In this document: positions 24,360 through 38,121 of the stretch, piece after piece | Layout of the letters: every line of letters starts with the position of its first letter | Position numbering within the stretch: the stretch's first letter is position 1 | Assembly (NCBI GenBank): GCA_023261485.1 | Contig: JAHFOY010000008.1 | Coordinates: forward strand, 1-38,615 | Source of the DNA: Planctomycetota bacterium | Lineage (GTDB): Bacteria; Planctomycetota; Brocadiia; Brocadiales; Brocadiaceae | Length of the DNA stretch: 38,615 nucleotides | Direction of reading: 5' to 3' | Notes under the pieces: model-generated | Told to the model about the DNA's origin: nothing | The model's input: the letters and a program-made list of their open reading frames with translations, nothing else | Databases searched by the model: none | Translations under genes and position numbers: made by a program

Positions 24360-25025
24360 CTAATACTTCGATACATTCATTTCTTCCATCCGCCCTGTAA
24401 CCATAAATACAATCCTTTCCGCTATATTGGTTACCCTGTCTGCAATCCGTTCCAAATTGTGGGATACCCATGTAAGATAGGTGGCTTGATGAATTATTTT
24501 TGGATTTTGTATCATCAGAAGCAGAAGCTCTCTGTAAATCTGATCATGAAGGGCGTCTACCCTGTCATCTTCATTACAAATACGTCTTGCTGCTTCTACA
24601 TCTCTATTGACAAACGCCCTAAGGCATTTTTCGAGCATGGATAGTCCTGCCTCAGTCATTATAGGGATATCAATGAGGGGTTTTACCAGAGGTTCGTCTC
24701 CTATCAATAAGCTTATTTTGGCAATTCCCTCCGCATGGTCACCCATACGCTCGAGATCGGTTACTATGCTTAATATGGAAGTTAATTCCCTTAAATCAAC
24801 AGCCATAGGCTGCTGTGTAGCGATAAGGGAAATACATTTTTCTTCAATCTCAAACCGCTTTTTGTTTATATGAATATCATTTGCTATGATTTCTCTGGAT
24901 GCGTCTTTGTTCCTTTTCTGAAGCGCTTCCACAGATTTCCTTATGGCATCCGTCACCATATTCCCCATCTTCAGCACTTCATCTTCAAGGTTTTTTAACG
25001 CCCTGTGATAAACTTCTCGTGTCAC
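24360..25025 (-). CDS. phoU: PhoU phosphate-transport regulator
   Basis: A 221-residue PhoU: two three-helix bundles with the conserved E-x-x-x-D motifs (for example E-R-M-G-D-H-A-E-G-I near residue 85 and a matching N-L-E-R-I-A-D-R-V-T-N-I-A-E-R near the C-terminus). PhoU restrains the Pst transporter and the Pho two-component system when phosphate is plentiful. The frame is open to a TTG at 25061, but the GTG at 25025 gives the family start T-R-E-V-Y-H-R and has an AGGGAG ribosome binding site 6 bases upstream, so that start is preferred. It is the last gene of the pst unit, 28 bases after pstB. Confidence 0.94.
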   Translation of the reverse strand: MTREVYHRALKNLEDEVLKMGNMVTDAIRKSVEALQKRNKDASREIIANDIHINKKRFEIEEKCISLIATQQPMAVDLRELTSILSIVTDLERMGDHAEGIAKISLLIGDEPLVKPLIDIPIMTEAGLSMLEKCLRAFVNRDVEAARRICNEDDRVDALHDQIYRELLLLMIQNPKIIHQATYLTWVSHNLERIADRVTNIAERIVFMVTGRMEEMNVSKY

Positions 25026-25053
25026 GTTTTTCTCCCTGTAAAAAAGAATCTTT

Positions 25054-25833
25054 CTACCCAAATCTTCCTGTAATATAGTCCTCCGTCTGTTTTTCGCGAG
25101 GATTGGTGAATATCTCCGTTGTGATGTTAAACTCTACGAGTTCTCCGAGCATGAAGAATCCGGTGTAATCTGATATTCTGGCTGCTTGCTGCATATTGTG
25201 GGTAACGATAATAACGGTGTAATCCCGTTTCAGTTCTACCAGCATATCTTCTATCTTGGATGTTGCAATGGGGTCCAGGGCAGAACATGGTTCATCCAAA
25301 AGTAAAATCTCCGGTTCGGTAGCCAGTGCCCGTGCAATACACATGCGCTGCTGCTGTCCGCCTGAAAGGTCGAGGGCGTTCATATGCAGCCTGTCCTTTA
25401 CCTCGTCCCAGAGTGCGGCTCTTTTTAAGGCATTTTCACAGATATCGTCCAGGGAGCTTTTTTTATTGATACCGAGGACTCGGGGGCCATACAACACGTT
25501 CTCGTAAATGGTTTTTGGAAAGGGGTTGGGTTTCTGGAAGACCATGCCCACCCTCTTCCTGAGTTCTGTAACATCGACGGAAGGCGCATAGATATCCTGT
25601 CCGTCTATTTGAATAGAGCCTTCAATAGTCACGCTTTCTATGAGATCGTTCAGGCGATTCAAACACCTGATTAATGTGGACTTCCCGCACCCGGACGGCC
25701 CGATAAAAGAAGTTATTCTCTTTTTCGAAATGTCAAGGTTGATTTCCTTCAGCGCCTTAGTCTTGCCATAGTAAAGGCTCAGGCCTATGATGTTAACAAT
25801 TGGGTCGGGGACTTCCATTCGCACCTTTTCCAT
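25054..25833 (-). CDS. pstB: PstB phosphate ABC-transporter ATPase
   Basis: A 259-residue ABC ATPase. Walker [10 protein letters not shown] is at 45-53, the Q-loop segment V-F-Q-K-P-N-P-F-P around 98-106 is diagnostic for PstB, the signature L-S-G-G-Q is at 156-160 and Walker B L-L-L-D-E-P at 177-182. The H-loop T-H-N-M-Q-Q-A follows. It powers inorganic phosphate import through PstCA. The gap to pstA (92 bases) carries a degenerate palindromic repeat, unlike the tight junctions elsewhere in this operon. Confidence 0.97.
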
Positions 25834-25925: not shown

Positions 25926-27524
25926 TTATAATGACGCCGTACTGTACCATTTTTTCAGCTTAGTTCTCACCACGATAGCGGTAAGGTTCAATACAAGCAC
26001 GGTAAAAAGCAACACAAGGGTTGTCGCGTAGACCATGGGAATGGCCGCCTCGACATTGGGAGATTGGAATCCGACATCATATATATGGAAGCCCAGATGC
26101 ATGAACTTCCTTTCCAGATGTATAAAAGGAAAATGCTGATCCAGGGGGAGGGAAGGCGCAAGCTTTACAACCCCCGTAATCATCAGGGGTGCAACCTCTC
26201 CGGCAGCTCGTGCTATGGCGAGAATTGCGCCGGTAAGTATCCCGGGGACTGCCTGGGGAAGCACCACTTTCCATAACGTTTCAAACTTTGTAGCGCCAAG
26301 TGCATATGCCCCCTCCCGTATGGACATGGGGACAGAAGAAAGCCCTTCTTCCGTCGCCACGACAACGACGGGCACTGTCAGGAGAGCCAGGGTGAGAGAC
26401 GCCCACAAGATACCGCCAGTTCCGAACGTAGGGGTTGGCAGCGCTTCTGAGAAAAACAGTTTATCGATACCTCCGCCTAAAAAATAGATGAAAAAACCAA
26501 GGCCAAAAATCCCGAAGACTATGGATGGAACTCCGGCGAGGTTACTGACCGATATCCTTACAAGCCGGGCGATACTGCTGTCACTTGCATATTCTCTGAG
26601 ATATACCGCAGTCAGAACGCCAAGCGGGACAACTGCAATACTCATGATCAGCACCATCATGACCGTTCCAAAAATAGCCGGGAATATCCCCCCTTCGGTA
26701 TTGGCTTCCCTCGGTTCATCCGACACAAACTCCCAGAACTTGGCCACGTAAAAACCAATTTTGGCAAAACTTCCCATGGTATTAGGTGCGTAGAGACGGA
26801 CGATCTGAAACACGGGTATGGTCTTTTCACTGCCGTCGGCCAGGAGCGCCACGACTTCTTTTTCCCTTGCCTTTTGGTGAAGCCCTGTCAGGATGTCCTC
26901 TTTTTCCCGGTAAGCCTTTTTAAGAACGTCCATTCTGGCGTTGACAGTTGCGATCTTTTTTTGAATCCCGGTAGTGGGTGGTAACGTTGACAGTCGTTTT
27001 AATTCAAGGCGATTTTTTTCCATCCGGTAATTTATATTACCAATCTCCTTTTTTTCCACAGACCGGATCTTTTTAAATAACCCCCAGCTTTCCTTTAGCA
27101 TGGCCGTCATTTCGGCAGGGCTTACCGGCTTTATATCATCTCCCTGTTTCCACCCTTTTAAAGAACCGTACATATTGCCCCACTCGCGTCTTTCGAACGC
27201 CAGGGCATCATGGGGAAGTTCGTGAGATACAATGTCTGCGTCGTCTATCCACCTGAAATCCATGCCAAAGACGTCCCTGTTCCCAACCTTCAATTTAGTC
27301 CGATAAGCGTCTTTTTTGTGGGGAATGGATTCCTTCTTTGCAATCTCTCCCAGGACTACTGCGCCATCCCGGAGCGTAAACCGGACAAGCTTGTGAGGCC
27401 AAAAGATGCCGAACCCGTTTATCAGGATGAGAGCGATCAGTCCGCATATCATCAATAGGCTGATGGTCAGCGTACCTGCCGTCAGCCAGATATAGGGATT
27501 GCCTGTTTTAAAAAGTTTCTTCAT
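25926..27524 (-). CDS. pstA: PstA phosphate permease, long form
   Basis: A 532-residue inner-membrane permease, nearly twice the usual PstA length (about 290). The first helix (about 13-38) is followed by a large soluble extracytoplasmic insertion (about 45-275, with a coiled-coil stretch around 150-215). The permease core then has about six helices, including the binding-protein-dependent transport signature (A-L-G-A-T-K-F-E-T-L-W-K-V-V-L-P-Q-A). The long form resembles the DUF3333-containing PstA proteins known in Pseudomonas and relatives. It pairs with PstC to form the phosphate channel. Its start overlaps the pstC stop by four bases. Confidence 0.93.
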   Translation of the reverse strand: MKKLFKTGNPYIWLTAGTLTISLLMICGLIALILINGFGIFWPHKLVRFTLRDGAVVLGEIAKKESIPHKKDAYRTKLKVGNRDVFGMDFRWIDDADIVSHELPHDALAFERREWGNMYGSLKGWKQGDDIKPVSPAEMTAMLKESWGLFKKIRSVEKKEIGNINYRMEKNRLELKRLSTLPPTTGIQKKIATVNARMDVLKKAYREKEDILTGLHQKAREKEVVALLADGSEKTIPVFQIVRLYAPNTMGSFAKIGFYVAKFWEFVSDEPREANTEGGIFPAIFGTVMMVLIMSIAVVPLGVLTAVYLREYASDSSIARLVRISVSNLAGVPSIVFGIFGLGFFIYFLGGGIDKLFFSEALPTPTFGTGGILWASLTLALLTVPVVVVATEEGLSSVPMSIREGAYALGATKFETLWKVVLPQAVPGILTGAILAIARAAGEVAPLMITGVVKLAPSLPLDQHFPFIHLERKFMHLGFHIYDVGFQSPNVEAAIPMVYATTLVLLFTVLVLNLTAIVVRTKLKKWYSTASL

Positions 27525-29848
27525 AATTTGCTGTACCTCCGCCTCATCCTCTGGCGTACCATTTCAGCGAGGGTATTGATGGTAAAGGTAGTTATAAAAA
27601 GGAGCAGGGCTGCGAGAAAAAGCACCCGGTAAAGTGTGCCTCCAAACGGGGCCTCTGGTATCTCAACTGCTATGTTTGCGGCAAGCGCCCTGAACCCGTT
27701 GAATAAATTCCAGTCCATTATGGGGGTATTGCCCGTTGCCATAAGGACGATCATGGTCTCGCCCACCGCCCTTCCAAAACCGATCATAACGGCCGAAAAA
27801 ATTCCCGGGCTGGCGGCGGGAAGCACCACCCTGACGGCCGTCTGCCACGGGGTTGCGCCAAGCGCCAGCGAAGCCGATACAAGGCTATTGGGGACGTTGC
27901 TGATGGCATCTTCAGATATGGTAAAAATAAGCGGTATTACGGCGAACCCCATTGCAAAACCCACGACAATGGCATTCCTCTGGTCATACTTCAAACCCAG
28001 AATATCGAAAAGCCATTGCCGGTAATCTCCCCCGAAAAAGACTGTTTCAAAAACGCCGCTGAGCTGTACGGATGCATATACGGCCCCGATAATAAAGGGT
28101 ATTAAAAATAAGGTTTCAGTTCCGTGCCTGTATCCGCCCTTTATGCGGGCAGGGATGGACTTCCAGATATAAAATGCAGCGGCAATAGCGAGTACGATAA
28201 AAAACGGCATAACAACCAGCGCCGGAAATATCCTTTCCATTAACGGCGCAAGCCATAATCCGGCAAGAAATCCGAGGATGACGCTGGGAAGCGCCGCCAT
28301 GACCTCAATAACGGGTTTTATTATTTTTAAGGAACTATGGAGAAACTGGGACGTATAGAGTGCAGCAAGAATGCCAATAGGCACTGCAATGAGCATGGCA
28401 TAGATCGTGCCCTTGATGGTGCCGAAGATTAACGGCACAAGGCTCAATTTCGGTTCAAAATCATCTGTCCCTCCGGTGGACTGCCATACAAACTCCGGTT
28501 TTTCATAACCCTCATACCATATCTTCCCAAACAGGGTTTTTAAAGTAGCTTCCGGGTGTGGATTTGAAATGTCCCATTGGCGCAGGTTTCCGTTTGAATC
28601 CATAACCAGAATACCATTTGCCTTTGGTGAAAAGGCAAGGGCGGCAGGGATAGATTTTATCTCAAGGTTTAATAGCGTTTGTTCAGAGGTTGCATGGTTG
28701 AGATGGATTGACCCGTCAGAGGCCGCCGTCACAAAACCTTTGTCCCTCAGAGATGAAGCAACCGCCGCAACCGGGGCATGGTGGGATTTGAGGGTATGCA
28801 CCTTTTTAAGAACCCATCCGGAAGGTGATGCCTCATCCCGTACCTGCATCCATACGTTTACACCGCCGCCGTAGTCGCCAACTACAAGCGAAACATCTCC
28901 AAGCAAAAAGCCCAGGGCAGTTACCGCCTTGTCAGACACCAATATCTTTTCGGCAAGAAAAGGGTTTTCCCTGTCCTTCACATTGATATGAAATATCTCA
29001 CCTGCGGATGTCCCGGCGTAGAGATTTTCCATAAAATGGTCAAGCGCCAGAGAAGTTATTTCGGCCTTGTTTTCCTGATTTGTTGAGCTATTGGCGGCAA
29101 GTATTCCCTCCCTTGTGTCCGTTCTTTCCGAAGGGAGCGGCGCTTGATTACCGGTTGTTGCTGTTTCTTCCTGCAACTGGGATGGAAATTGATTGAGGCT
29201 GTGTTGCGTTGTGAGGCTGGTAATATCCTTCCTGGTTTCTTTTCTTTCTTCCGCGCCAAAAAGTGTGCTTTTTGTTTCTGTGGATTTAAGTATGAGCCTG
29301 CCGTCTTTCGTACAGGCAACTGTAACTGTTGCGCTGTCATCTCTCCTGGCTGCAATAAAGGCAATCCCCTTCCCCTCGTCGCCAACCAGGGTGGGTTCTT
29401 CTTCGGATATTTCCGGGAGTATGGTTCTTTTTTCGTTTTCAAACGATTCGGAAAATTTGATGGAGACCGTTAAAACCTTTCCGTCGCTCGTGCCCAGAGC
29501 AAGAAGATTATTATCCCTATCGACCGATGTTATTGCAGAACCGTTAAGCCCTGTGATTGTATAGTTTTTAAAGACCTTACCGTCAGACAAAGAGACGAAC
29601 TCTACCTTGCCGTCCTGATAAACGGCATAGGCAACCCCCTGGTGCTCGTCCACGCCGATGGCAACCGCCTTGCCCTGAAGAGAATATGTGTTTTCCTTCG
29701 ATACCTTTGCGCCCTTAAGAAGCGGATAAACCTCCAGAAAAATAAATAAAAATAAGGCAAGTACAACAAAAACAGTGGCCGCACCACCAAATGTAATAGC
29801 CCAGTATGCGGCCCTGTCAGTAAACTTTCTTCTTTTTAAACTTTTCAT
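27521..29848 (-). CDS. pstC: PstC phosphate permease, long form with beta-propeller-like periplasmic domain
   Basis: A 775-residue permease, far longer than E. coli PstC (about 320). After the first helix (about 17-42) comes an extracytoplasmic region of about 420 residues built of WD40-like repeats (patterns such as T-S-V-D-R-D-N-N-L-L-A-L-G-T-S-D-G-K-V and A-A-V-A-S-S-L-R-D-K-G-F-V-T-A-A-S-D-G-S-I). It contains a Ser/Thr/Glu-rich low-complexity stretch near 205-260. The permease core (about 475-765) ends with the transport signature A-L-G-A-T-P-W-Q-T-A-V-R-V-V-L-P-A-A. The extra domain may regulate phosphate delivery from PstS or sense envelope state. It begins three bases after the pstS stop. 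Confidence 0.93.
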   Translation of the reverse strand: MKSLKRRKFTDRAAYWAITFGGAATVFVVLALFLFIFLEVYPLLKGAKVSKENTYSLQGKAVAIGVDEHQGVAYAVYQDGKVEFVSLSDGKVFKNYTITGLNGSAITSVDRDNNLLALGTSDGKVLTVSIKFSESFENEKRTILPEISEEEPTLVGDEGKGIAFIAARRDDSATVTVACTKDGRLILKSTETKSTLFGAEERKETRKDITSLTTQHSLNQFPSQLQEETATTGNQAPLPSERTDTREGILAANSSTNQENKAEITSLALDHFMENLYAGTSAGEIFHINVKDRENPFLAEKILVSDKAVTALGFLLGDVSLVVGDYGGGVNVWMQVRDEASPSGWVLKKVHTLKSHHAPVAAVASSLRDKGFVTAASDGSIHLNHATSEQTLLNLEIKSIPAALAFSPKANGILVMDSNGNLRQWDISNPHPEATLKTLFGKIWYEGYEKPEFVWQSTGGTDDFEPKLSLVPLIFGTIKGTIYAMLIAVPIGILAALYTSQFLHSSLKIIKPVIEVMAALPSVILGFLAGLWLAPLMERIFPALVVMPFFIVLAIAAAFYIWKSIPARIKGGYRHGTETLFLIPFIIGAVYASVQLSGVFETVFFGGDYRQWLFDILGLKYDQRNAIVVGFAMGFAVIPLIFTISEDAISNVPNSLVSASLALGATPWQTAVRVVLPAASPGIFSAVMIGFGRAVGETMIVLMATGNTPIMDWNLFNGFRALAANIAVEIPEAPFGGTLYRVLFLAALLLFITTFTINTLAEMVRQRMRRRYSKL

Positions 29849-29851
29849 GCA

Positions 29852-30826
29852 CTATTCTATTTTCTTCAGTTCCTCTTCAACAACAGATGCCGGTAAAGGT
29901 ACGAATCCGTCTTTTACCACTACATCCTGGCCTTCTCTGCTCAGAATGAATTTTACAAACTCCTTAACGAGGGGATCGAGGGGCTGACCGGGTTTTTTAT
30001 TGATATATACGTAAAGAAACCTTGCCAGCGGATAAGAACCGTTCAATACGTTTGCCATTTCGGCATCCTTATACGGTTCCCCCTCTTTAAATGAAAGAGG
30101 TACAGAGCGAACACCGGATGTCCTGTAACCAATACCGCTGTAACCTATGGCATAACGGTCCTCGGTAATCCCCTGCACCACTGAGGCAGAACCTGGTTGC
30201 TCTTTTACCGTACTCTTGTAATCGCCTTTATAGAGGGCGTGTTCTTTGAAAAAGCCATAAGTGCCAGATGCAGAATTACGGCCATAGAGGCTTACCGGCC
30301 GGCTCACCCACTCACCCGTTAAACCAAGCTGTCCCCACGTCTTAATATCCTCCTTGTATCCACCCTTCCGTGTCTTCGAAAAAATGGCGTCCACCTGAGG
30401 AAAACTCAAACCTTTTATTGAGTTGTCTTTATTTACATACACAGCAAGGGCATCCAGCGACGTCTTTATCTCCGTGGGTTTATACCCATATTTTTTTTCA
30501 AAGCCGTCAATTTCTGTCGGCTTCATTGCCCTGCTCATGGGGCCTATCTGTGCAGTTCCCGAAATTAGTGAAGGCGGAGCAGTGGTAGAGCCCTTTCCTT
30601 CAATCTGAATTTTCACATTTGGATATAACTTGTTAAACCCTTCGGCCCAATAGGTCATGAGGTTATTCATGGTATCTGAACCTATACTGTTCAGGTTCCC
30701 GGAGACGCCCCCGGTCTTGGCATAGGGCTTGATAACCGCGCCAGACCAAGCCGCCTTATTGGCAATGGCTGCACAGGCAAGGGTACAACTAAAAATTGCT
30801 ATTAACAGCCAGAATTTTTTTACCAT
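29852..30826 (-). CDS. pstS: PstS phosphate-binding protein
   Basis: A 324-residue periplasmic solute-binding protein with an N-terminal signal ([17 protein letters not shown]). Phosphate-binding motifs include G-S-D-T-M-N (about 48-53), G-K-G-S-T-T-A-P (about 77-84), S-R-x-x-x (S-R-A-M-K) and the S-G-T-Y-G-F segment near 190. It captures inorganic phosphate and hands it to PstCA. The ATG has an AAAGGAGA ribosome binding site. A 6-bp hairpin (GAGTAA/TTACTC, 30865-30880) lies in the 75-base upstream gap. I see no separate Pho box there, so expression probably comes from the promoter upstream of the porin. Confidence 0.95.
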
Positions 30827-30901: not shown

Positions 30902-31438
30902 TTATTTTTGGACATGGTTTTGTGGATGACGATCGTCATATTCTTTAACCGCTTCGTCCGAGTCAAAGACAACGGTTTCACCATTCTGTCCATATCCTAT
31001 CTTCGTAATGCCCACGCCAAGTTCCCCTGATTTTTCAAAGTTCCCCTTCCGTGCAGGCGAGGTAAAGATGTACAATCTGCCATCCTTCTCAAATTCCCGG
31101 TAGGCCTTGATACCAACCTTTCCAAGTATCTCTTTTACAAGACGGCCTTCATACTCAATTACCGCATCTTCTGAATCAAAGACGACCGTTTCGCCGTTAC
31201 GTCCGTATCCTATCTTAATAATACCTTTGCCCAATTCTCCAGACTTTTCAAAATCTGCCTTCCGCGCGGGTGAAGCAAACACATATGTCCTTCCGTTGTT
31301 TTCAATCTCTTGATAAGTACTTTCTTCCTTGACTGATTCGGCAGTAGACACGGCCATTTGCGAAGCGGTACAAAATACCAAACCCGCAATACCCGTGGTA
31401 AAAAGAAAATGTAAAGTTTTTTTTGTTAACTTTTCCAT
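30902..31438 (-). CDS. Small secreted protein with two 58-residue repeats, in the Pho operon
   Basis: A 178-residue protein I cannot assign to a named family. A signal peptide (about 1-33) precedes two tandem copies of a 58-residue module at 42-99 and 113-170, identical at 41 of 58 positions. The shared core is S-P-A-R-K, F-E-K-S-G-E-L-G, K-I-G-Y-G, N-G-E-T-V-V-F-D-S and A-V-x-E-Y. No cysteine lies in the modules, so no disulfides or Cys-metal site there. The ATG at 31438 follows AAGGAGGT by 8 bases; a 15-residue longer frame would run into an inverted repeat and is rejected. It lies between the phosphate porin and pstS on one strand, so it is probably periplasmic and phosphate-regulated. It could be a phosphate or polyphosphate ligand carrier or a porin-associated protein; the function is unknown. 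Confidence 0.85.
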   Translation of the reverse strand: MEKLTKKTLHFLFTTGIAGLVFCTASQMAVSTAESVKEESTYQEIENNGRTYVFASPARKADFEKSGELGKGIIKIGYGRNGETVVFDSEDAVIEYEGRLVKEILGKVGIKAYREFEKDGRLYIFTSPARKGNFEKSGELGVGITKIGYGQNGETVVFDSDEAVKEYDDRHPQNHVQK

Positions 31439-31461
31439 GTCTTTCAACCTCCTTAAATTTT

Positions 31462-31491
31462 TGTAGGGGTTGAGCATGTTCAACCCCTACA
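31462..31491. repeat. Perfect 12-bp inverted repeat between porin and repeat-protein genes
   Basis: TGTAGGGGTTGA (31462-31473) and its exact reverse complement TCAACCCCTACA (31480-31491) flank a six-base loop. There is no U-run on either side, so it is not a standard intrinsic terminator. The sequence type is a common dispersed intergenic palindrome; in the transcript it would make a stable hairpin just after the porin stop and could stabilise the porin mRNA. Confidence 0.65.
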
Positions 31492-31506: not shown

Positions 31507-32877
31507 TTAAAATATAATTTGATACTGCACCCGGACTCTGTTTTCTTCTTTATCCTGATCCTTCGTATCGGTCACGTAGTGTCCAACATCTGCCTGTATC
31601 TTGGAACGGTGGGCGCGGAAGTAATAGTTGATACCTGCCGTGTATTCCCTCTGGAGGTCATTCGATACATCCGTGTCGGGGTCAACCATAGAATAACGAG
31701 CCGCAACCTCAAGTTTTTTCGGCAACACGAAATAGCCGGTCTGTGTATAGAACCCGTCTGAATTTACCGTATCGCCATTGGATTCCGGATCCTCTGTCCT
31801 CAGAAAATACTCATTATTCCAGGATATACCCTTGTATTTTAAACCCGTGTCGACAACCCCTATAATCGTGTTGGTGTTCTTGATTTTTTCATCATTTGCC
31901 TTTCCATCAAAGGCTACAGAAGCGCCTATCGTTGCCTTCAATGTATCGGAATACTTCACATCTGTTTCATCGTAGTAATCATACTTTCCAAAGGGGTTGT
32001 ACCTTGCGTTCAGCACGTACATGAGTTTGTTGTCAATGTTGTCTCCGGAGTTTTTCTCACCCGCCCCCTGGAATACCGCGGCATGATACTCTATGTTTCC
32101 CTCGAAAGGTTTTCCGTAAATATCAAGACCGTAATCACGATCCTGATCAAATGCCTCACTGGCAATAGACCTGTCCTGTAAGAGAAGCTTCGAGGATGAC
32201 GAGACCCTTTGCCTGTTAAATGGCACTTTAAAATATCCAATCTTGGCATTTACTTCCTCAAGGGGTGTCCAGTACACATAAAAATCCCTCATACCCAAAT
32301 TAAATTTATCTGCATCAGCTTCCACATAATAGTGCAGGTTTTTGCCGTAGATATTGCCGCCCATGTAAACCCTCGCCCTGCGGAGATTGATACTGCTGGT
32401 GTCTACAGCGCCAAAATCTTCGTCATTGTCTTTGTACGTATATCGGAATTGCATCCTGCCACCCAAGTTTAATGAGTAGTTTTTATCGAGTGATTTAAAA
32501 CTGAGTGCGTATTTTTCATCGTCCGGAGTGTATTCGGCTTCAACAGCGTTTGGCAAACCAAGCCCCAATTCCTTTCGCGCCTCGGGAGTTGAAAGGTAGT
32601 TTTCGACAGCCTTTTTAACATCTTCCTTTGCAATTGGCGCAGTTTCAGTGTTAGCGGTATCCAAACGATTTTTTAAGGCCTGTATTTGCTCCTGCTGTTT
32701 TTGTACGGCCTCTTCCATCTGCTTCAATTGCCACTTTAAATCTTCCGTCTTGCTTCCGGACGCTTCAACTGGTTGTGCCTCCTGCTGTGCTGACACCTCA
32801 TGCACCATATCCCCTGCGTATGTACTACACAATATAATCACCGATGATAAAACATACTTATACCATTTACTTCGCAT
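31507..32877 (-). CDS. Phosphate-selective porin O/P-type outer-membrane protein
   Basis: A 456-residue outer-membrane porin of the OprP/OprO (porin_O_P) family. Signal peptide (about 1-30); a heptad-rich coiled coil (about 45-75, W-Q-L-K-Q-M-E-E-A-V-Q-K-Q-Q-E-Q-I) probably forms a periplasmic trimerising stalk. A beta-barrel from about 125 to the end follows, with alternating hydrophobic strands, the L-x-L-G-G-R-x-Q-F-R start and the R-R-A-R-V motif. The C-terminal residue is Phe, as required for Bam-dependent insertion. It should let phosphate or pyrophosphate cross the outer membrane. It is first in the unit porin-repeat protein-pstSCAB-phoU and lies just downstream of the Pho-box-like repeats. 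An AGGAGGG ribosome binding site precedes the ATG. Confidence 0.9.
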   Translation of the reverse strand: MRSKWYKYVLSSVIILCSTYAGDMVHEVSAQQEAQPVEASGSKTEDLKWQLKQMEEAVQKQQEQIQALKNRLDTANTETAPIAKEDVKKAVENYLSTPEARKELGLGLPNAVEAEYTPDDEKYALSFKSLDKNYSLNLGGRMQFRYTYKDNDEDFGAVDTSSINLRRARVYMGGNIYGKNLHYYVEADADKFNLGMRDFYVYWTPLEEVNAKIGYFKVPFNRQRVSSSSKLLLQDRSIASEAFDQDRDYGLDIYGKPFEGNIEYHAAVFQGAGEKNSGDNIDNKLMYVLNARYNPFGKYDYYDETDVKYSDTLKATIGASVAFDGKANDEKIKNTNTIIGVVDTGLKYKGISWNNEYFLRTEDPESNGDTVNSDGFYTQTGYFVLPKKLEVAARYSMVDPDTDVSNDLQREYTAGINYYFRAHRSKIQADVGHYVTDTKDQDKEENRVRVQYQIIF

Positions 32878-32926
32878 TTCAAAACCCTCCTTTTCTAAAA
32901 AGATAAACCATGCAAATCATGAAAGT

Positions 32927-32980
32927 AGAATAAACTTTGAGTATTAAGGTAATATTAAGAAATTGTTAATTTTGTGTTAA
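32927..32980 (-). promoter_or_regulatory. Pho-box-like array of four 11-bp direct repeats plus -10
   Basis: On the minus strand the hexamers TTAACA (32980-32975), TTAACA (32969-32964), TTAATA (32958-32953) and TTAATA (32947-32942) are each separated by exactly five bases. A TATTCT -10 candidate (32932-32927) begins nine bases after the last one. Eleven-base spacing of direct repeats with the -10 just behind is the layout of PhoB/PhoP-activated promoters, and TTAACA is the known Bacillus PhoP half-site. It heads the porin-pst operon, ending about 50 bases before the porin ATG. Confidence 0.75.
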
Positions 32981-33166: not shown

Positions 33167-34576
33167 TCAGCGCCGCGTTTTGGCGATGCGCTCGACTTGT
33201 TCGAGGTAGCGGGCGATGTCGTCGCGAGGTTTTACTTCCTGCGCCCGGCGCAATAACGGAACGGCTTCTGCGTATCTGCCCAACCCCACCAACACCTGCG
33301 ATTGACGGATCCTGGCGTTGACCTCGAAGGCCTCCAGACTCGCGGCGCGTTCGTAGTAGAAGATTGCCCGGTCGGGCTGGTTCTGCCGGGAATAGTGCTG
33401 GCCGAGCAGCATCAACGCTTCGCCGTCGAGCGGGTCAAGCTTCACAATCTCTTCCAACACGCTGGCTGTCTCGCCGTTGCTGCCACCTTCTGCCATGCTG
33501 AGGCGAGCTTCGAGCTTGAGCAGTTTCCGGCGATCAACCTCTTCCAGTTCGTTCTCCCAGACCTCGCGGATGTGCGTCGCGACTTGCCGGGCTTGAGTGA
33601 GCGCGCCGCGCGCTGCCAACAACTCGGCGGACTGCAGCGCCTGTCCGTGCGATTGATTTGCATCCACGTCAACGGCCCGCAGGTACGCACTGGCGGCCAG
33701 GTCCATCAGGTTTTCGCTGACGTAGATGTCGCCGAGCGTGTGCAGGCTGTCCACTGTCGATTTGCCGAGGCGGTCCACGGTTTCAAGGTCTACAGCGGCC
33801 TTGAGCGGTTGTTTCATGCCGAGGTAGGCCTGGGCCTGCAACAACCAGAAATCGGTTTTTTCCGGGTAGCGCCCGATGAGCACCTCCAGCAGGGTGGCCG
33901 CATCCTCGAACTTCTGTTGTTTAAAAACGCAGCGGGTGATGCCAAGCCGCCACTCGGTGTTTTCAGGCTGGAGCAGCAGGGCGTTGCGGTACGCTGCTTC
34001 TGAGGCCTGATAATCCTGTTTAGCGGCGTAGGCGAATCCGAGCAGGCCATACGAATAGGCGTCACCGCCGCCGAGTTGGATCATCCGGGTGAACGCGCTG
34101 ATTGCATCGTCGTACTTACCGTCTCGGACGTAGATCAGTCCGAGGTTGCGCCAGGCACGGCGGAAACTGGGGAATTTCTCCACGGCCTTTTGATAGTTGC
34201 CGAGCGCCTCGATCATCTTATCCTGTTGGAACTGAATGCCGCCCAGAGTGAAATCCAGGATCGCCGAACAATCCGGCTTCATCCGATTTATGAGCGTGCC
34301 CTCGGCCTTGGGCAGGTCTTCCGCCATTAGGGGACGTATCTTCTCGAGGATTGAGACTTCCTCGGGCGTGATGCGAGGTTCGACCTCGGCGTTAATACCG
34401 TAATATGCAACGAACTCCTTCTTAAAGACCGGATCATTCCAGATATCCGGTTCCGATTGGCTCAACTGAGACGCCCGGGTTTGCGTTGAAGAGCAGACGG
34501 TTATTCCGAGGAACAGAAAAAATAGAGTGAAGGGGAAATGTCTGAAAATTGTAATACGCAATTTTAATATTTTCAT
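33167..34576 (-). CDS. TPR protein of the TonB2-type system
   Basis: A 469-residue secreted tetratricopeptide protein. Signal peptide about 1-36, then a short conserved-looking segment (about 40-110) and at least eight TPR-like helical pairs to the end (for example A-L-G-N-Y-Q-K-A-V-E-K-F-P and A-I-F-Y-Y-E-R-A-A-S-L). In Vibrio/Shewanella TonB2 operons a TPR lipoprotein/secreted protein is encoded at the same place and is thought to assist TonB function in the periplasm. No lipobox cysteine is evident here. The ribosome binding site AAAGGA lies inside the TonB remnant upstream. The first 60 bases of the gene are AT-rich, while the rest is GC-rich. Confidence 0.85.
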   Translation of the reverse strand: MKILKLRITIFRHFPFTLFFLFLGITVCSSTQTRASQLSQSEPDIWNDPVFKKEFVAYYGINAEVEPRITPEEVSILEKIRPLMAEDLPKAEGTLINRMKPDCSAILDFTLGGIQFQQDKMIEALGNYQKAVEKFPSFRRAWRNLGLIYVRDGKYDDAISAFTRMIQLGGGDAYSYGLLGFAYAAKQDYQASEAAYRNALLLQPENTEWRLGITRCVFKQQKFEDAATLLEVLIGRYPEKTDFWLLQAQAYLGMKQPLKAAVDLETVDRLGKSTVDSLHTLGDIYVSENLMDLAASAYLRAVDVDANQSHGQALQSAELLAARGALTQARQVATHIREVWENELEEVDRRKLLKLEARLSMAEGGSNGETASVLEEIVKLDPLDGEALMLLGQHYSRQNQPDRAIFYYERAASLEAFEVNARIRQSQVLVGLGRYAEAVPLLRRAQEVKPRDDIARYLEQVERIAKTRR

Positions 34577-34578
34577 AG

Positions 34579-34662
34579 TTATTGTCCTTTCGGGAAGCTG
34601 ATGGGCACACGCAGCCGCACGGCATGGCCGCTCCGTGTGCCGGATTCAAATTTCCACTGTGT
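34579..34662 (-). pseudogene. C-terminal remnant of a second TonB
   Basis: Between exbB and the TPR gene a 27-codon frame reads T-Q-W-K-F-E-S-G-T-R-S-G then R-L-R-V-P-I-S-F-P-K-G-Q and stop. It aligns with the last residues of the intact TonB (K-Q-W-K-F-E-P-A, then K-M-R-V-P-I-R-F-Q-P-S), including the diagnostic Q-W-K-F-E and R-V-P-I. An in-frame stop (34663-34665) lies immediately upstream, only 12 bases after the exbB stop, and no start codon is available. It is therefore a leftover of a tonB gene whose remainder was deleted. The remnant DNA also forms an 8-bp hairpin (34604-34611 with 34634-34641). Confidence 0.7.
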
Positions 34663-34677
34663 TTAACCGTGCATGGT

Positions 34678-35514
34678 TCATGTCTTCCTTCCGCGTTGTC
34701 CGTGATGAGCGATTTGGGAGGCCGCTTTCAGAGTGTCCGCCGCCGGATGCATCAGCATCTTCACCTGTGTGCCAGCGGATTCGATTTCAAGTCTGACCTT
34801 TTCCACCCGCGTGTTTAGGATGTTGAACGGAATCAATGCCGTGATGGCGATGCCCAATCCGAACGCCGTGGCAATGAGCGCCTCGGCAATGCCGCCCGTA
34901 ATAGCGCCGGGTGCGCTGAGTTCTCCGCCGATCAGCGAAAAAGAACCCATCATGCCGGTGACCGTGCCGAGCAACCCTAGCAGCGGCGCGAGCGTAATTA
35001 CCGTGTCCAGAATTGGAATGCCGCGCCGGAATCGTTTCAGTTCCAGCTCTTGCGCATACAAGAGTGCGCTTTCGAGCGCTCTCTCGTCGTGCGTCAGCGC
35101 ATAACCCAGCACTCGCACAACGTAGAATTCCGACGCGTTGCTGATGCGGATCGCGCACTCCCTGTCGCCCTGTCGGAGCGCGGCTAAAAATTTCTCCATC
35201 GCTTGCGGATCGCGCTTGCGCTGCTCGTTGATCAAAAAAATGACACGCTCAATGACCGTGCCCAACGACAGATTCGAGGCGAATAATAACGGCCACATAA
35301 TAGGCCCGCCTTTCTTTAAAATGTGGATCAGGCTGACATTCTCCGGAAACGCCTTAAGCACGTTGGCGCGCCAGATAAAGACAAGAGCCAAAATAAGGAG
35401 ACAGGCAAAGAACGCTGCTTTCGCACGCGGTCCCAGCCTCACCCGGAACCGCCTGTACGACGGCGTTTCTGCGCCGGGGAAATTCCGAATGTGCCTGAAG
35501 AATTTTTCTTTCAT
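34678..35514 (-). CDS. exbB: ExbB/MotA/TolQ proton-channel protein (second copy)
   Basis: A 278-residue inner-membrane protein of the ExbB/TolQ/MotA family. A basic N-terminus and one helix (about 32-50) precede the K-K-G-G-P-I-M-W-P helix; the C-terminal helical hairpin contains T-L-A-P-L-L-G-L-L-G-T-V-T-G-M-M-G-S-F and G-I-A-E-A-L-I-A-T-A-F-G-L, the hallmark of proton-motive-force channels. From about residue 60 on it is about 83 percent identical to the C-terminal half of the TtpC-like protein encoded at 36664-38121, with 78 consecutive identical residues, so the two are recent paralogues or have undergone gene conversion. It starts five bases after the tonB stop. In Vibrio TonB2 systems two such proteins, TtpC and ExbB2, are both required. 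Confidence 0.92.
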   Translation of the reverse strand: MKEKFFRHIRNFPGAETPSYRRFRVRLGPRAKAAFFACLLILALVFIWRANVLKAFPENVSLIHILKKGGPIMWPLLFASNLSLGTVIERVIFLINEQRKRDPQAMEKFLAALRQGDRECAIRISNASEFYVVRVLGYALTHDERALESALLYAQELELKRFRRGIPILDTVITLAPLLGLLGTVTGMMGSFSLIGGELSAPGAITGGIAEALIATAFGLGIAITALIPFNILNTRVEKVRLEIESAGTQVKMLMHPAADTLKAASQIAHHGQRGRKT

Positions 35515-35519
35515 GATCG

Positions 35520-36242
35520 TTAGCTCGGTTGAAAGCGGATCGGCACGCGCATTTTGCAGGGCACGCGCTGGCCGCCTTTAATTGCCGGCTCAAACTTCCA
35601 TTGCTTGACGGCATCGAGAGCCGGTTTCTCGAATGCCGGGTGCGAGGACTTCACTACTCGCGGTTGGGCGACTTTTCCTGTCTGGTCCACGACGAAAAGG
35701 ACGGTGACGACGCCTTCGAGTTTTTTGCCGCGCAATTCGTTGGGAAAAACGGGCGCGGCCTGGAAAATGGCCCTCGGTTTCTGGTCAATTTCGCCGAGGC
35801 TGAACGCGTTTCCGAGTCTCTCGTCCATCGCGCCCGTTTTGCCCATGCCGCCGATACGGCCGCCGGACGAAAAACTGAGCGCCTCTGCGAAATCGCCGCC
35901 ACTGCCGGCTTGTCCGCTGAGCGCCGCCTCGATTGCGCTGAGGCTGGCGGCTTCCAACTCGGGTGCGCTGTCAGCGGCGGACAGTTCGAGATTGCGGACG
36001 ATCTCAGAGGCATCCGGAACTTGTTCGCTTTCGGTTTCCATCTCCTCTGTTTTCTCGGTCATTGTCTTCAAATCCTCAGCTTTCTCCTTTTCTGACGAGA
36101 CATCCTCATTGCTCAACAACTCTACCTGTTGCAATGTGCCATGATCCTTCTCGTGGCTGTTAAACAGCAATCCGCCGAACAAGATTATGACGGCGTGTAA
36201 CGCAAGGGCGCAGGAAATACCGAAAAACAGATTGATCTTCAT
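35520..36242 (-). CDS. tonB: TonB energy transducer
   Basis: A 240-residue TonB. A single N-terminal helix (about 8-28, with S-C-A-L-A-L-H-A-V, including the TonB-type conserved Ser and His that interact with ExbBD) anchors it in the inner membrane. The linker (about 30-150) is Glu/Ser/Ala-rich instead of the usual Pro/Lys-rich rod, which is unusual. The C-terminal TonB domain (about 155-240) has G-V-V-T-V-L-F-V-V-D, V-V-K-S-S-H-P-A-F-E and A-V-K-Q-W-K-F-E-P-A. It transmits proton-motive energy to outer-membrane receptors through their TonB boxes. It overlaps the exbD stop by four bases. No TonB-dependent receptor is in the window. Confidence 0.94.
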   Translation of the reverse strand: MKINLFFGISCALALHAVIILFGGLLFNSHEKDHGTLQQVELLSNEDVSSEKEKAEDLKTMTEKTEEMETESEQVPDASEIVRNLELSAADSAPELEAASLSAIEAALSGQAGSGGDFAEALSFSSGGRIGGMGKTGAMDERLGNAFSLGEIDQKPRAIFQAAPVFPNELRGKKLEGVVTVLFVVDQTGKVAQPRVVKSSHPAFEKPALDAVKQWKFEPAIKGGQRVPCKMRVPIRFQPS

Positions 36243-36661
36243 TTCTTGTCCGTGTTGATGCCGACCTTGGCAATGCCGATCTTGCGGACCTCGTCAAGGA
36301 CGGCGACCACATATTTGAAATCCGCGCCGGCATCGCTGTTGATGATGACCTTCGCGTCTTTGACAGTCGACCTGAGCGTCTGGAGCTTCAACGGCAACTG
36401 CGCGACAGTGATTTTCTCCTTGTTGTAAAACACATCGCCTTTGTCCGTGACGCTCAACGTGACGGCTTTATTTAACTCTTGCTGGTCACCGAGCGATGCG
36501 GCGCTGCCGGCGGTCGGCAATGCCACCTGCACGCCCTGGTTTTTCGTCATCGAAAGCGACACCATGATGAACGTCGCCAGCAGAAAGAAGATGATGTCAA
36601 TGAGCGGGATAATTTCAATCCGCGCTCTTTTTCCGGAACCGCCGCCAGATGAACTATGCAT
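36239..36661 (-). CDS. exbD: ExbD/TolR biopolymer-transport protein
   Basis: A 140-residue protein with a basic cytoplasmic N-terminus, one membrane helix (about 17-38) carrying the essential proton-binding Asp (D22 in I-P-L-I-D-I-I-F-F-L-L), and a periplasmic domain (about 45-138) with the usual ExbD fold (K-V-I-I-N-S-D-A-G-A-D-F-K-Y-V). It forms the stator core with ExbB and drives TonB. It lies two bases after the TtpC-like gene and overlaps tonB by four bases, so stoichiometric translation of TtpC-ExbD-TonB is likely. Confidence 0.95.
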   Translation of the reverse strand: MHSSSGGGSGKRARIEIIPLIDIIFFLLATFIMVSLSMTKNQGVQVALPTAGSAASLGDQQELNKAVTLSVTDKGDVFYNKEKITVAQLPLKLQTLRSTVKDAKVIINSDAGADFKYVVAVLDEVRKIGIAKVGINTDKK

Positions 36662-36663
36662 TG

Positions 36664-38121
36664 TTAATTCTCCTTATACGGGTTGACAGGGATGAACTGG
36701 GAGTCGTCCGCCACCGTGCTTGCCGGTGTATGCATCAGCAACTCCAACTGCGTGGCTGCTAGTTCGATTTCGCGTCTGGCCTCTTCCATCCGGGTGTTTA
36801 GAATGTTGAACGGAATCAGCGCCGTGATAGCGATGCCCAATCCGAACGCCGTGGCAATGAGCGCCTCGGCGATACCTCCCGTGATCGCGCCTGGCGCACT
36901 GAGTTCCCCGCCGATCAGCGAGAACGACCCCATCATGCCGGTGACCGTGCCGAGCAACCCGAGCAATGGAGCAAGCGTGATCACCGTGTCCAGAATCGGA
37001 ATGCCGCGTCGGAATCGTTTCAGATCCAGCTCCTGCGCATACAAGAGTGCGTTTTCGAGCGATGTCTCCCTGTGTGTCAGCGCGTAGCCTAACGAACGGA
37101 CGACGTGAAACCTCGACGCGTTGCTTACATGAATTGCGCCCTCTGTGTCGCCCTTGCTAACCGCGGCGAAGAATTTCTCCATCGCCTGTGGATCGCGCTT
37201 TCCCTGCTCGCTGATCAGAAAAATGACGCGTTCGATGACTGTGCCCAGCGCCAAGATCGCAGCGAATAACAACGGCCACATGATCGGTCCGCCCTTCTTA
37301 AAGATGTGGAACAGGCTGGTTTTCTGCACGAGTGCCTTGAGGGCGCCGCCGCGTGACGGGTCGAGCGGCATTAGTCCTTCACCCTTCTCCACCAGGTCTG
37401 CGATTCCGCCTTGCAGAGCGCCTTCCAGCGGACGAATCAGCGGGTTGGTCGAGCCGGACTGTGGGATGGACAGACCGGACACAGTGACGTTCCTTGCGCT
37501 GAACAAGGCCACTGGACCAATAATGACGTACTTGCCCAACACCACTGCTCCCTGCATATCCACACCGACGCCGGAGAAACGTATCCCTCCAATGGCATCA
37601 AACAACCGCTTCAGCGAGACGTCGGCCAGGGCAGTCTGCCGGCTGAATTTCTCCGGCATGGACAACGAGGGGTTTTCCGTTGCCTGCCTGGCGGTCTCGA
37701 TGGCTTCGCCGCAATACTGGAGTTCGCTGACGTTGACCTTCGATTCGAATGTGCGTGCATACTCGTTGAGCAGGTTGCCAATGTAGAGTAGCTCATCCTG
37801 ACGGGCTTTCATCTCGGCCTTAATGGTAATGATCTCGAGGTTGCCGGCATCCACCAGACGCGTGACCTTTTCGTTATCGCGCCGTAATTGCGCGAGTTTC
37901 TCCTCCATGACCGAGAGTTCTTGCGCGAGAGGCAGTTTTTCTGCCGAGATCTGCTCGCGCAGTTGGCTGAGTTCCTGAATGCTCCTTGCAAGTTCCTGCC
38001 CGGCGGAAAGGGACAATTGATTCATCGTCTCGTCGCTGGCAGCAGGCTTTTCAGAAAAACAGCAGACGGCGAGGCAAAAGATAAAAAAGATACCGGTGAG
38101 TGTTTTCATGAGAGTTTTCAT
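36664..38121 (-). CDS. TtpC-like ExbB with long N-terminal periplasmic coiled-coil domain
   Basis: A 485-residue fusion. A signal peptide (about 1-26) leads to a coiled-coil stretch (about 35-115) and a small globular region (about 120-265) in the periplasm. A MotA/TolQ/ExbB channel domain (about 270-470) with T-L-A-P-L-L-G-L-L-G-T-V-T-G and the F-G-L-G-I-A-I-T-A-L helix follows. This is the architecture of TtpC, the extra ExbB-like component of the Vibrio TonB2 system. The channel half is nearly identical to the ExbB downstream (34678-35514). Two in-frame methionines (M1 and M5, within M-K-T-L-M-K-T-L) are possible starts. It overlaps the upstream DUF3450 gene by four bases. Confidence 0.9.
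   Translation of the reverse strand: MKTLMKTLTGIFFIFCLAVCCFSEKPAASDETMNQLSLSAGQELARSIQELSQLREQISAEKLPLAQELSVMEEKLAQLRRDNEKVTRLVDAGNLEIITIKAEMKARQDELLYIGNLLNEYARTFESKVNVSELQYCGEAIETARQATENPSLSMPEKFSRQTALADVSLKRLFDAIGGIRFSGVGVDMQGAVVLGKYVIIGPVALFSARNVTVSGLSIPQSGSTNPLIRPLEGALQGGIADLVEKGEGLMPLDPSRGGALKALVQKTSLFHIFKKGGPIMWPLLFAAILALGTVIERVIFLISEQGKRDPQAMEKFFAAVSKGDTEGAIHVSNASRFHVVRSLGYALTHRETSLENALLYAQELDLKRFRRGIPILDTVITLAPLLGLLGTVTGMMGSFSLIGGELSAPGAITGGIAEALIATAFGLGIAITALIPFNILNTRMEEARREIELAATQLELLMHTPASTVADDSQFIPVNPYKEN

Follow-up and report, generated by a model that had tools for sequence, protein, structure and literature searches.

A four-unit repeat array upstream of a porin-pst operon as a predicted Pho box of Brocadiales

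The 38,615-nt stretch of DNA analyzed here (the window; contig JAHFOY010000008.1 of the Planctomycetota assembly GCA_023261485.1, family Brocadiaceae) contains a short array of direct repeats in front of genes for an outer-membrane porin and for phosphate transport. Is this array a Pho box, and if so, which regulator would read a half-site spelled TTAAYA? Anammox reactors are run with phosphate as one of the operating variables (PMC12727191). A literature search that covered few subscription journals turned up no account of a Pho box or its regulon in anammox-family bacteria. With a reliable motif, phosphate-starvation genes could be predicted for uncultured planctomycetes, and the list predicted here includes genes for lipid metabolism, surface proteins, and TonB-dependent transport.

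The array and the operon behind it

On the minus strand, from 32980 to 32942, four TTAAYA units succeed one another at an exact 11-bp period and are followed, 9 nt later (CTCAAAGTT), by TATTCT (Table 1). From 5' to 3' on this strand, the spacers between units 1 and 2, 2 and 3, and 3 and 4 are CAAAA, ATTTC, and TTACC. The array is intergenic: the TPR gene on its upstream side ends at 33167, and on its downstream side, 64 nt away, is the porin start codon (32877). Rereading of the sequence reproduced the hexamers, their period, and the position of TATTCT exactly as given in the initial annotation. Dinucleotide shuffling of the window (100 replicates) produced no match to the array, even when 3 mismatches were allowed in the 24 specified bases. 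Pho boxes in general consist of at least two direct repeats at an 11-bp period; here there are four.

Table 1. Features of the array and the operon downstream
Feature	Position	Strand	Basis
Pho-box half-site 1, TTAACA	32975..32980	-	Read from sequence; alignment of 52 family sites
Pho-box half-site 2, TTAACA	32964..32969	-	Read from sequence; alignment of 52 family sites
Pho-box half-site 3, TTAATA, preceded by C	32953..32958	-	Sequence; 52-site family alignment
Pho-box half-site 4, TTAATA, preceded by C	32942..32947	-	Sequence; 52-site family alignment
-10-like TATTCT, 9 nt after half-site 4	32927..32932	-	Sequence; 52-site family alignment
Shine-Dalgarno AAAAGGAGGG, porin gene	32885..32894	-	Read from sequence
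Outer-membrane porin, Porin_O_P family	31507..32877	-	PF07396, 68 bits (cut-off 20.9); ATG at 32877
Secreted protein, YHS-like domain	30902..31483	-	PF04945, marginal (30.7 bits; cut-off 30.3)
pstS	29852..30826	-	TIGR02136, 253 bits
pstC with extra beta-propeller-like (WD40-like) part	27521..29848	-	TIGR02138; WD40-type matches
pstA	25926..27524	-	TIGR00974
pstB	25054..25833	-	TIGR00972
phoU	24360..25061	-	TIGR02135

The genes of the operon were called with Pfam and NCBIfam profiles. PstS, PstC, PstA, PstB, and PhoU all score above the curated cut-offs of their NCBIfam models, which bears out the pstSCAB-phoU set initially read downstream of the array. The porin had been described as OprP-type; its membership in the Porin_O_P family stands, and nothing narrower than the family is upheld. 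The closest relatives of PstS, at 74 to 98% identity, come from records labeled Planctomycetota, Candidatus Brocadia, Brocadiaceae, and Loosdrechtia, in line with a host from Brocadiaceae, the anammox family. Two of the transporter subunits are unusual in size: PstC (775 aa) carries its WD40/beta-propeller-like part ahead of the permease domain, and PstA (532 aa) is far longer than usual. Long PstS-PstC-PstA sets related to that of the window are present in several phyla.

Recurrence in the parent genome and across Brocadiaceae

The array was sought in the parent genome (2.79 Mb in 217 contigs) by pattern search, with the reversed pattern as a control. The exact three-unit pattern gave 7 matches, compared with 0 for the control, at four places: before the porin-pst operon, pstB2-phoU2 (contig C2), phoB2 (C168), and a cluster encoding a cNMP-binding protein and a secreted protein. 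With four units and at most 3 mismatches, 9 matches (0 for the control) were obtained at seven places, one of which precedes a 100-aa gene located just ahead of the latter cluster. On contig C39, a looser match lies before a paralog of the 100-aa gene, which is followed by PsiE (PF06146). Another looser match precedes the gene for an 825-aa protein, followed by genes for a phosphatidylserine decarboxylase, an Lgt-like protein, and a methyltransferase. The matches are thus enriched before the phosphate genes of the genome, as is generally the case for Pho boxes.

The C39 region (L208:2226-8485) carries two Pho-box-like arrays, one before the PsiE-family gene and one before the gene for the 825-aa protein, which has no Pfam match; phosphate-controlled remodeling of membrane lipids is a possible role of this PsiE/phosphatidylserine decarboxylase cluster. 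The cNMP-binding/secreted-protein cluster adjoins the pst operon (L008:782-8976 on C168, and window positions 33167-38121). Behind the array, its cNMP-binding gene and the gene for the 657-aa secreted protein lead to a TonB-dependent receptor, and the cluster also includes an ExbB-ExbD-TonB set. The C terminus of the secreted protein matches an anammox S-layer glycoprotein model, and these genes possibly form a TonB-driven system for the uptake of a phosphorus source.

Among the Brocadiaceae genomes searched, all 33 contain the array at 2 or fewer mismatches (103 matches and 4 control matches, summed). Enrichment at phosphate genes had been proposed as the check on the motif, and in the parent and 32 family genomes, the matches indeed concentrate at pst, phoU, phoB, psiE, and ACR3, with almost no control matches. 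About 38 of 53 sites stand before phosphate genes, namely, porin-pst (18 sites), pst2 or phoU2 (17 sites), and phoB2, PsiE, and ACR3 (one each); the others precede the secreted/cNMP cluster (8 sites) or genes without a clear phosphate role (7 sites). When 52 of the family sites are aligned by their final unit, the TTAAYA units prove nearly invariant and the spacers between them variable; the first spacer is A-rich, and a C precedes units 3 and 4. A TATAAT-like -10 element begins 9 nt downstream of the last unit, with its T and A at the same distance as in the window in 50 and 49 of the 52 sites, respectively. The array therefore occupies the place of a -35 element at about 10 bp from the -10, as Pho boxes generally do.

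Restriction of the motif to a single family was considered and rejected, given that scans with the core found variant arrays in families f2 and f4. The strict pattern missed most of the loci in these families, where it is the third unit or the outer ones that depart from it (TTTATA, TTAACC). The f4 array reads TTAACC, TTAACA, TTTATA, and TTAACA, and in the f4 loci that were read, a TATTAT-like -10 also begins 9 nt on. In three relatives' loci (L132, L151, and L156), the Pho box is located before genes for small proteins of about 205 to 216 aa and a protein of about 1,030 to 1,070 aa.

PhoB, PhoR, and residue 201

The parent genome encodes three Trans_reg_C regulators, two of which are PhoB paralogs that are 82% identical to each other. 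The phoB1 gene (G000:C208:5732-6415, L209) adjoins the gene for the genome's best PhoR-like kinase; a four-unit genome search allowing up to 3 mismatches found no array at this phoB1-phoR operon. The phoB2 gene (G000:C168:47695-48378; L008:9696-10379, minus strand) has the array in its own promoter and lies beside ACR3 and an arsenate-reductase-like gene, with no adjacent kinase. The best NCBIfam match of the regulator is TIGR02154 (PhoB). Homologs of both PhoB and PhoR, expected wherever a Pho box operates, are present on C208 and C168; their scores (254 of 296 bits and 315 of 334 bits, respectively) are below the curated equivalog cut-offs, and the names therefore rest on best match, gene order, and regulon.

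In E. coli PhoB, Arg201 forms hydrogen bonds with the guanine of the CTGTCAT half-site; thymines are touched by Thr194 and Val197, and bases lying between half-sites by Arg219 (PMC3973317). The change at 201 described next thus falls in the helix with which the regulator reads DNA. These contact residues were compared across 34 Brocadiales regulator rows, representing 33 distinct proteins. Position 201 is occupied by Ser in 31 rows and by Ala in 3; Thr194 is retained in 33 of the 34, and Val197, Arg203, Thr217, and Arg219 are retained in all. The f4 regulators have His or Asn at 201. In other phyla with related pstS genes, repeats with periods of 8 to 14 were sought, and a period of 11 was found in 25 of 264 upstream regions, compared with 1 to 6 for the other periods. 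When only the TAAY core was required and a locus with two regulators was counted twice, regulators with Arg at 201 went with a preceding G in 24 of 30 units, and those with Gly with a preceding C in 22 of 24; in four Brocadiaceae records, the base was T in all 11 units.

Across phyla, the identity of residue 201 thus tends to go with that of the base preceding TAAC. A more general rule can be put forward tentatively, with somewhat less than even confidence: PhoB residue 201 would set the base before the TAAC/TCAT core (Arg with G; Ser, Ala, His, or Asn with T; Gly with C), such that the Pho box of a lineage could be predicted from its PhoB, with Brocadiales in the T class and Desulfobulbales in the C class. 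There are exceptions, namely, L061 (Lys with T) and L057 and L059 (Arg with T), although the regulators of the latter two may not be PhoB. Because the residue classes are few and follow lineages, they are not independent, and given the exceptions, the match is a lead rather than a proof. Cyanobacterial SphR is described as sharing well-conserved contact residues with E. coli PhoB, even though SphR reads TTAAC (PMC1906773), which may count against the rule. At three Planctomycetota loci with Ala or Ser at 201 (L096, L114, and L123), no convincing upstream array was found. Desulfobulbales-type CCTAAY repeats with an 11-bp period are located upstream of pstS at L077, L079, L082, L088, L089, L091, L101, and L120, and the regulators near these loci have Phe-Gly in place of Arg-Arg at PhoB positions 200 and 201. 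The match between a PhoB residue and an operator base across phyla offers a cheap test of how a regulator family shifts its target.

Predicted mechanism, alternatives, and known Pho boxes

Taken together, the sequence evidence makes it very likely that the array is a Pho box, that is, the operator/activator site of a Brocadiales PhoB-family response regulator. Under phosphate limitation, PhoR would phosphorylate PhoB, and PhoB dimers would occupy the four 11-bp half-sites in head-to-tail orientation, at the position otherwise held by a -35 element. The bound dimers would bring sigma-70 RNA polymerase to the -10, located 9 nt further on, and switch on porin-YHS-pstSCAB-phoU. In parallel, pstB2-phoU2, psiE, the lipid cluster, and the secreted/TonB cluster would be turned on, and activation of the second phoB copy would provide positive feedback. 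Replacement of Arg201, the guanine contact, by Ser or Ala would explain why the half-site is spelled TTAAYA and not TGTCAT.

OmpR-family proteins generally bind direct repeats, and the genome encodes a third Trans_reg_C regulator (C48), so that another member of this family, responding to another signal, might bind the array and control the phosphate genes. This is very improbable: the array precedes pst, phoU, and PsiE genes and is also part of a PhoB paralog's promoter, and the C48 protein is only 37% identical to the PhoB pair. Slightly less credible still is the idea that the repeats act as a UP-like or bent-DNA element and boost basal transcription with no dedicated regulator. The array is indeed A+T-rich, helically phased (about 10.5 to 11 bp), and near a -10, but near-invariant TTAAYA units with variable spacers, a small set of genes, and the near absence of reversed-pattern matches favor a sequence-specific protein.

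The least probable of the alternatives is gene transfer of both regulator and box from a PhoP system like that of Bacillus. The half-site letters do resemble the Bacillus PhoP site, as the initial annotation pointed out, finding this unexpected in a Gram-negative background. That surprise is lessened: cyanobacteria, which bear an outer membrane, also have TTAA-core boxes (PMC1906773, PMC11126600), and the recurrence of a related TAAC core in other phyla further weakens the notion that the half-site is unusual outside the Bacillus type. Moreover, PhoB is the best profile match of the regulator, which occurs throughout Brocadiales, and because the box grades into the f2 and f4 variants, vertical descent is favored over transfer. 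A Bacillus origin was set aside on the basis of this PhoB profile and vertical pattern.

With a PhoB-type Pho box as the preferred reading, the array can be compared with known systems. The PhoP box of Bacillus subtilis consists of TTAACA-like hexamers with spacers of about 5 bp, upstream of pst and pho genes. Its letters fit the array, but the regulator here is planctomycetal and PhoB-like by profile, and the resemblance is shared with cyanobacteria. The repeats before pstS in Geobacteraceae and Nitrospira (TGTAACA) and in Desulfobulbales (CCTAAY) have the same 11-bp period, a TAAC core, and a related pstS; they differ in having G or C rather than T before TAAC and in PhoB residue 201, which is Arg or Gly. 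The E. coli Pho box (CTGTCAT) is likewise made of 11-bp direct repeats (7 conserved and 4 loose bases) and serves a PhoB/PhoR pair with pst-phoU as a target. In E. coli PhoB promoters, the activator sites replace the -35 element, with 10 bp to the -10 (PMC1906773), much as in the window. However, the E. coli half-site is not found here: the Brocadiales unit, TTAAYA, contains no guanine, and its PhoB has Ser or Ala in place of Arg201.

In the review literature, Pho-box consensus sequences are expected to vary by species (PMC4415409). Relative to the literature searched, the Brocadiales box with its predicted regulon, the four-unit layout, the placement of phoB2 under a box of its own, and the correspondence between PhoB residue and operator base are new here. 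The cyanobacterial SphR/PhoB box of Synechocystis resembles the array in its tandem direct repeats at an 11-bp period, its TTAA core, and its location before pst genes. It comprises three copies of CTTAACCT (PMC1906773), compared with four units in Brocadiales, a planctomycete host, and TTAA is followed by CCT rather than by C or T and then A (CTTAAYA); CTTAAY is present in units 3 and 4 of the array. Gel-shift (EMSA) data from Synechocystis support the TTAA-core Pho box and indicate that each TTAA is needed (PMC11126600). With TTAA-core tandem Pho boxes known from cyanobacteria, the array is probably the form that this established type of operator takes in Brocadiales.
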